A stretch of 64,000 bases of DNA from Rugalucina vietnamica (lineage: Eukaryota > Mollusca > Bivalvia > Lucinida > Lucinidae), in the NCBI GenBank assembly GCA_964017185.1, contig OZ024869.1, forward strand, positions 54,400,761-54,464,760. The letters run 5' to 3'. The position numbers and the translations under genes were made by a program. This document shows positions 50,501 through 53,500 of the stretch, piece after piece (position 1 is the first letter of the stretch; every line of letters begins with the position of its first letter). The notes beneath the pieces were generated by a model. That model ran no database searches, was not told the origin of the DNA, and saw nothing but the letters and a program-made list of their open reading frames with translations.

Positions 50501-53500
50501 AAGCAGTCGCAAGGAATTCACATGCCAGTGAGATTCAAGCTTAAATGAATGTGAGTTTCACATATCAAATTTACATGGCAGGTCAAGGCAGTGACGAAAT
50601 AAAATACTGAGTATACCTATACTTTACAAGCTATGTTTACAAGGCTGGCATTTCTTTTTCTATTTAGTATAAAAATATAATGAATATTAGCAGACATGTA
50701 TATAGAAATCAAGTGTGTCTATTGCTTCTCATCTATGTCTACATATGAGTCGCCCCATGGAAAAACCAACAATCTGCATAGGCGAAAACAAAGGCGCAGA
50801 TCAGCTTCGCGGTAACCGCGAAGCTGATCAGCGCCTTTGTTTTCACTACTCGGATAGTACAATTCCTCCTCTACGTAACTCCAAAATTTCAAGCTTCTAG
50901 CCTGCTTCTATAGCTGTACAGGCCGGTTTGTGTCAGACCTGTTCTGAAACCACATTGTTGGTTTCCCACGAGGCGGCTCATATCAAATTCTATTATGGGA
51001 GCTCAGCTGAGCATTCACCCTCCTTTGTGCATGATGTGTGAGATTATTATAAGGTACAACAAATTTGTGAACTGGCTTATACTTGATTTTTTTTCTCTTT
51101 GGCACCAACTGCAGTATGTTGTATATAAATCTGTTTTATGTAAACTCTTCAGCATAGAATCAGATAGGGAAGATAACATCTAGTTATTTTGAATAAACAA
51201 ATGTATGTTTGTAAACTTATGACATATTAAGAATTTTGCAAGGAAATATCTCCTACCCCTCTGCAACCCCCTACGGACATTTAACTCAGCACAAGGCTGT
51301 CATCATGTTAATCAGACTATGATGTTAACTATCATTATACCCAGAAACAATAACAACAAATTAACATTAGTACCACAGCTGACTTACCCAGGGGTATAGG
51401 CTGAGGGGGGCCGGGCAGGCCAAACACTGAGCTGGGTTATAAAAGTAAGGCACTCTTGGCACTTCATCACCGTATAAAAGATGCATGTTTATAGTTCAAG
51501 TCACTGCTTTGCACTTAGATTCCAATAAAAAGAATTTAAGGGCTCTGTATCCAGTCTCCAAACGAAGCTTTATCTTCAGTTTCTATTCTCTATATGATTT
51601 AAGCCACAACTTCTATTGCTTTCAACTTGTGATTAATTTGAATTAAAATGAGCTATATTCAATTTTTGCAGCCTCTTACTTTTGCTATCTCAACAGTGAG
51701 TATGTCTCTTCCTTGAACTTTTGAAAAATGTCAAATGTTTAATCCATCACAAGCATGTGTCAACACCCGAAGACAGTACCCTGGTACGCAAATATGATTT
51801 AATATTAAAGACCAATATTCCCCCACGTGGAAATTACTGAAGTATATTCCTCCGATAACAATCAATAACCTTAAAACTCCCCTAATCAATCAGTAGACTT
51901 CACACTTTTCAACAGAAAAATAAGATTTCTATTTTCAAAGAGCTTCAGAAGCTGATTCACTCTTTCTCCTTATAATTTGTATCTCTCTACAGAAGTTTAT
52001 GAAAAATTGATTATTGCGCTGAAATGCAGTAGCGTAGGACTTTAACACTCTTTATGTTATTATCTTCCTGTATTACTATGATATAAATAATCGACCCACG
52101 CGATGTTAGTATGCTAAAGCTTTTTCCACTCCACTAGCTGAGTAGGGTGTGCCAACTGACTGAGTTTTATATTTTATGAAGGTGTGTCGATGTACATGTA
52201 GTGTAAGTGATGTAAAACACATTATGATATAATAATTATCGTGCTTCATAGCACAGCAGCTGACTGCCGCAAACAAATGTACTATAGCATGTGTTTGTTT
52301 GCTGAAGGATGGGTTTTACCTTGGAATAGGATAAGTCACGTCTCTGTAGTCTATATACAGAGCTAGGAAAAGTTTTCAAGAAAAGAAAAAGGCTGGGATT
52401 GTTGGTGACTGCTCAGCCCTTCCCTTCTCTACCTGCCCCCCCCCCCCCCCCCATACCCCTCCCCTTAAGTGAGCTATATTAAGAGAAAAACCTGCTTTTT
52501 CTCTGTAAATCTGCACCATTAGAAATTTAAGTCATTTTTTCATGTGAAAAAGGGTTTTTTGTTGTTTTTTTTCTCTCTTCTTTTTTTGTGTTTTAATTCA
52601 TCCATTTTTTTTCTTCTATTTGTATTTAAAGCTGTGAGATGTTGAGAAATTTATTATTATTATTATTATTTATTTCTTATTTTTCTTATGAAGTTCCACA
52701 GGCAATTTTTCCGTTGGAATTTTTGCTGACTTGGGAGTCATCATCGCCCAACACAAAGTTGCGCAGGGTGATTTCAGTGGTCTAGGGGCACTAACACTAG
52801 TACTAGCCTTTTTTCTCCTTTGAGAGAAAACTCAAAATTGTTCTTAATACTACCCAGGTGTAAACATAGTATTTGGACATTTTCCATACAATAACAAAGA
52901 ATGATTATAGGTGTATTGAAGGTGTGGCCTTGCCCAAATCTCTCCCAGGGTCTGACAGCTTAGTGGGAGGTGCCCTACTGTTTACATCCAACATAATACA
53001 GGTCACCGATACTTACCACTTAATGGTGTGTAAAACCTTTGTCAAACATTAGTCACTCTGTAAAAACCTATCATTCAATGATCGCTGACTTAGTGATTTT
53101 TATTTCTTTGTTGAATTATGGGTAGATGAGTTCGTTTTGGGTTGAATTTTAAAGTGGTTCACTTTCTTTGTGACATTAAGAAACAAGATGCATAGTAGAC
53201 CTGATAGATAAAGGCTGCTTATCTACTTTACTATTGCCATTTAGCTGATCCGCACATTTGTGGTTATTCATAAATTATGCATGATTGATGCACATAAATT
53301 TCTTATCAAACAGTTTTTTTCTTTCCTTTTATTTTGTTTTGATATTTTCACATTTTCATTCATTGTATAGACAAACTTTCTGTAAGCCTTTATGTGGTAA
53401 TCTAAATATGATAAAAGTAAAACCACTTCCAAATCCTGCCGAAAAACATTTAGATCATATTTTTCTTTTTTCAGCTTTTTACTTTTTCATTATTTCCAAA

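Follow-up and report, generated by a model that had tools for sequence, protein, structure and literature searches.

Does the KLF gene on the minus strand of this Rugalucina vietnamica sequence have a second coding start inside its first intron? The window, a stretch of 64,000 nucleotides (contig OZ024869.1, positions 54400761-54464760, from a 1.09-Gb genome of 47 contigs), had been given a sequence-only reading in which a short open frame at 51388-51486 was named as a probable alternative first exon of this gene. We followed up that proposal by comparing the frame with control sequence and by weighing the other roles that it could have. Based on the features described below, we put the probability that 51486-51388 forms the coding portion of an alternative first exon in the PVDLS-bearing KLF gene at roughly 0.4. 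We put the alternative first exon forward as the best mechanism since it explains all of the anatomy.

A PVDLS-bearing KLF gene on the minus strand

By its predicted protein, the minus-strand gene is a KLF transcription factor carrying PVDLS. All exon boundaries given here are predictions from the DNA, and splice sites were scored with generic metazoan matrices that were not trained on this species. Three C-terminal C2H2 zinc fingers of the KLF type are split over two exons: sequence reading places the first finger in an exon at 41877-42070, while fingers 2 and 3 (GEKPYIC...HMKRH) lie in the last exon at 41342-41514, which has its stop at 41342 and a TATGCAG acceptor that was chosen by eye and is unscored. 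A scan of the last exon (query 41345-41518) gave a Pfam zf-C2H2 match with E=1e-13 covering fingers 2 and 3. The PVDLS/T corepressor motif of KLF3/8/12 is present in the exon at 45922-46069, which is entered in phase 0 and left in phase 1. PVDLS is the contact for CtBP.

The upstream coding exon (57587-58240) has its acceptor at 58240, its first ATG at 58231 and a donor in which AAG is followed by GTAAGA. The sequence-only reading gave the long form an N-terminal part of 215 residues. The exon has a phase-0 donor at 57587. The count of 215 runs from the first ATG, but no stop interrupts the frame between the acceptor and that ATG, and the true N-terminus or a coding exon could therefore lie further upstream. 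Searched against its own genome at E<=1, the 215-residue exon matches itself only. The acceptors at 58240, 46069 and 42070 score 7.35, 4.40 and 5.03, respectively. Downstream, the PVDLS exon exits in phase 1, whereas the exon with the first finger has to receive two bases carried over from its predecessor; since these phases do not join, the model must lack one or more exons between 45922 and 42070. A scan for it returned two candidates, neither of them convincing. Several other KLF-like finger exons occur in the same genome, the nearest among the matches listed being 82% identical.

When prokaryote contigs were scanned once for the finger exon, one locus came up, a KLF-type three-finger protein in Oceanospirillales strain XeTr1. 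It is encoded by an uninterrupted ORF of 432 aa on the plus strand of CANDOC010000001.1 (8906-10204; contig of 997,308 bases), which ends in three KLF-type zinc fingers with 79% identity to fingers 2-3 of the KLF described here and adjoins a 1002-aa ORF that is ankyrin-like by eye. A passage on the strain describes XeTr1 as coming from the sponge genus Xestospongia by way of culture collections, and as a member of the Endozoicomonadaceae that is sister to Kistimonas asteriae (PMC9860996). The gene looks like an animal-to-bacterium transfer, and its product is possibly a host-directed regulator. A literature search for a Kruppel-like protein in Endozoicomonas found no paper. This protein merits a study of its own more than the candidate first exon does.

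Anatomy of the candidate first exon

The first intron of the KLF gene (57586-46070, 11,517 bases) hosts the candidate exon. As had been reported, an ATG-led frame of 33 codons runs from 51486 to 51388 on the minus strand and ends in phase 0 at a consensus donor, with TGG followed by GTAAGT (51382-51387). The PVDLS exon begins in phase 0 at 46069, behind a TTTTCAG acceptor, and the reading frame stays open when the candidate exon is joined to it; the phase match that had been claimed is present, the donor of the ATG frame having the phase that the PVDLS exon requires. The in-frame stop described just before the ATG is a TGA at 51498, separated from the candidate ATG by three codons, and an A stands at position -3 relative to this ATG. 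With a score of 4.63 the donor ranks 7th among the 581 GTs of the intron; by the generic metazoan matrix it is good, not outstanding.

If this is an alternative first exon, the transcription start would lie no more than a few hundred bases upstream of 51486, translation would start at the ATG at 51486, and the donor at 51388 would be spliced to the acceptor at 46069. The predicted product would be a shortened KLF without the N-terminal part of 215 residues, in which the PVDLS corepressor motif and the zinc fingers are retained. We consider it rather unlikely that the function goes as far as an internal promoter driving a short isoform of repressor type, in which a Pro/Tyr/Cys-rich start of 33 residues replaces the long N-terminus, such that one gene would have two opposed or differently targeted activities.

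Open frames ending at a donor are frequent in control sequence

The strongest rival to the alternative first exon is that chance alone placed an open frame next to a donor-like GT in this long intron, and that 51486-51388 is unused. We estimated how often chance provides such a pair, defining a candidate as a frame of at least 33 codons whose donor scores at least as high as the donor at 51388. When the intron was simulated 200 times with a first-order Markov model, the mean was 0.18 candidates per intron, with at least one in 17% of the simulations. For a genomic control, we used twenty 10-kb stretches of this genome, hand-placed at round coordinates and read on both strands (399,600 bases). 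This control DNA, which is unannotated and may include genes, amounts to 34.7 intron lengths and contains 11 pairs that are as good or better, or 0.32 per intron length, and seven of the 11 have 33-60 codons. Given both control rates, the bare pattern of ORF and donor is unremarkable; by itself it is ordinary. The real intron holds two candidates, the 51388 frame and a 40-codon frame with its donor at 56041, the latter inside the repeat interval 55805-57534. Across the whole window there are six candidates on the minus strand, including two in the 215-residue exon and the 51388 frame itself, and one on the plus strand. The control counts and the second pair within repeat sequence of the same intron both speak for chance.

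The surroundings of the frame and its translation point the same way or are silent. In the 500 nt upstream, CpG observed/expected is 0.39 against a window median of 0.57, that is, without enrichment. The sole TATAAA in the 500 nt above the candidate ATG starts 7 nt before it and is thus too close to serve the candidate exon, and eight initiator-like words occur in about 500 nt of the same region. The 33-residue peptide gave 0 Pfam families at E<=1 and 0 PDB chains at E<=10, and in its own genome it matches itself only (E<=10). 'Probable', as the exon had been called, is therefore too strong: without regard to the leader, the pattern arises about once per three intron lengths, and the searches just described gave neither a promoter signal nor a peptide match. 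We also considered a likeness to the N-termini of vertebrate KLF3 and KLF12 and rejected it, as 1961 (KLF3) and 2510 (KLF12) of 3000 shuffles score as high against these N-termini, whose sequences are unverified.

The candidate exon is preceded by a long ATG-free stretch

The main feature that raises the candidate exon above chance is its long ATG-free leader. The stretch 51487-51744, a candidate 5' leader or promoter region, is free of ATG; going upstream, one first meets an ATG at 51747, 261 nt off, and gaps of at least that length account for 2 of the 312 ATG-to-ATG gaps of the intron, this one included. One of the 11 control candidates is free of ATG for at least 100 nt (232 nt) and none for at least 261 nt. 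Among the Markov introns, candidates with a leader of at least 261 nt occur at 0.0007 per intron (one case in 1,500) and those with at least 100 nt at 0.019. Such a stretch is as expected of a scanned 5' leader, on a test that is post hoc, having been picked after the sequence had been inspected.

The setting of the exon adds to this. Its G+C content of 0.525 is matched by 2.8% of the 99-bp windows of the intron, and it lies in an interval, 50988-54637, that is free of dispersed within-window repeats. At both the DNA and the protein level the exon is single copy in the 1.09-Gb genome, the DNA search having used 221 bases, with simple repeats and very common words skipped, and returned one match. 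The ATG-free leader, the raised GC and the single-copy setting are atypical for a chance frame. By itself, the sequence gives a second starting exon only a modest edge over chance. In our overall weighing, which puts a chance frame somewhat short of even odds, the alternative first coding exon and the chance frame come out about equally likely, with a small deficit for the exon.

Repeats are plentiful elsewhere in the window. An origin of the candidate exon from a transposable element is not supported, in that no within-window repeat (E<=1e-5) overlaps it and the nearest lies at 50740-50987. This nearest repeat belongs to a dispersed family of about 250 bases, found at at least a dozen other sites of the window, within the KLF locus and beyond, in copies that are at most 92% alike. 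One short tandem repeat (53706-53742) lies inside 50988-54637. Two tandem arrays flank the candidate exon within the same intron, at 47377-49131 (period 455 bases, 3.9 copies) and 56102-57423 (period 459 bases, 2.9 copies). Long frames at 22896-28941 (minus strand) and 17691-20106 (plus strand) resemble a Gypsy-type retroelement (frames of 1353 and 686 aa) and a fragmented non-LTR reverse transcriptase, the families being assigned by eye.

A cassette exon or a separate transcript is improbable

The segment could also be used as an internal exon, either as an in-phase cassette microexon of 39 nt (51426-51388) or as an out-of-frame poison exon of 44 nt (from 51431) or 13 nt (from 51400). Both flanking exons are in phase 0, and the microexon would insert 13 residues after ...VDSFK. 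An in-phase acceptor had been said to be lacking; in fact, the AG of a CTCAG at 51426, followed by TGT, is in phase, and the two out-of-frame AGs, at 51431 and 51400, reach scores of 2.64 and 3.64. The AG at 51426 scores just 0.07, however, and ranks 67th among the 633 AGs of the intron, against 4.4-7.35 for the inferred acceptors of the gene. Because this is the only in-phase AG and it is weak, a cassette exon is unlikely. Above the ATG, no AG scores above zero over 134 nt (to 51620): the AGs at 51503-51618 score below 0, and any in-phase entry there runs into the TGA at 51498. In addition, a scan of the intron for internal exons of 24-600 nt entered and left in phase 0, with an acceptor of at least 1.5 and a donor of at least 2, found none. 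We regard use as a cassette exon, in either form, as distinctly improbable.

Slightly less probable still is a non-coding or otherwise joined transcript that would use the donor at 51388 for its first exon and not the acceptor at 46069; it shares the donor and leader features, but the phase fits the 46069 acceptor, although chance alone gives such a fit to one frame in three.

Significance and comparison with known systems

If the alternative first exon is real, it would provide a choice between N-terminal isoforms in a corepressor-type KLF of an invertebrate, with the short isoform keeping the PVDLS motif and losing the Ser/Asn-rich N-terminal part, and it would correct gene models that show the long form alone. 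Transcription-factor genes commonly have alternative first exons. The exon would therefore be useful for annotation but not surprising, and an ordinary kind of isoform choice.

Among the literature matches listed, whose titles and abstract openings were covered, none reports that a molluscan KLF has an alternative first exon. The sequence-only reading drew a parallel with the two promoters of mammalian Klf3. This parallel is a loose one: the first exons of mammalian Klf3 are, we assume, non-coding and leave the protein unchanged, whereas the N-terminus would change here. What stands of it is that Klf3, a KLF of the PVDLS group, has a numbered promoter, implying more than one, as a passage on the mouse gene names a 'Klf3 1b promoter' (PMC5466599). 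Mammalian KLF8, a KLF of the same group, likewise has two promoters; the passage in question deals with the repression of KLF8 by KLF3, which silences through CtBP recruitment, and within that passage an N-terminal switch is not described (PMC8227323).

A further comparison is with the spiralian KLFs. KLFs with PVDLS exist in Drosophila and in spiralians, according to the relevant part of a KLF phylogeny in which a KLF3/8/12 clade is supported for vertebrates only (PMC7661307). The gene described here, with three C2H2 KLF fingers and PVDLS, fits the spiralian KLF1-8+12 with PVDLS of that study, which differs in that the word 'isoform' is absent from its main text (PMC7661307).

The proposed arrangement also has a counterpart outside the KLF family, in the LTR-driven Pu.2 isoform of mouse Pu.1, as outlined in a portion of PMC4056533. 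There, a retroelement provides the promoter and exon 3 of the gene contains the start codon, while the candidate exon has its own ATG and no within-window repeat match. Pu.2 is a transcription factor shortened at its N-terminus, with the DNA-binding domain intact, that is made from an internal promoter (PMC4056533); the short KLF would be of the same kind if the alternative first exon is used as proposed.
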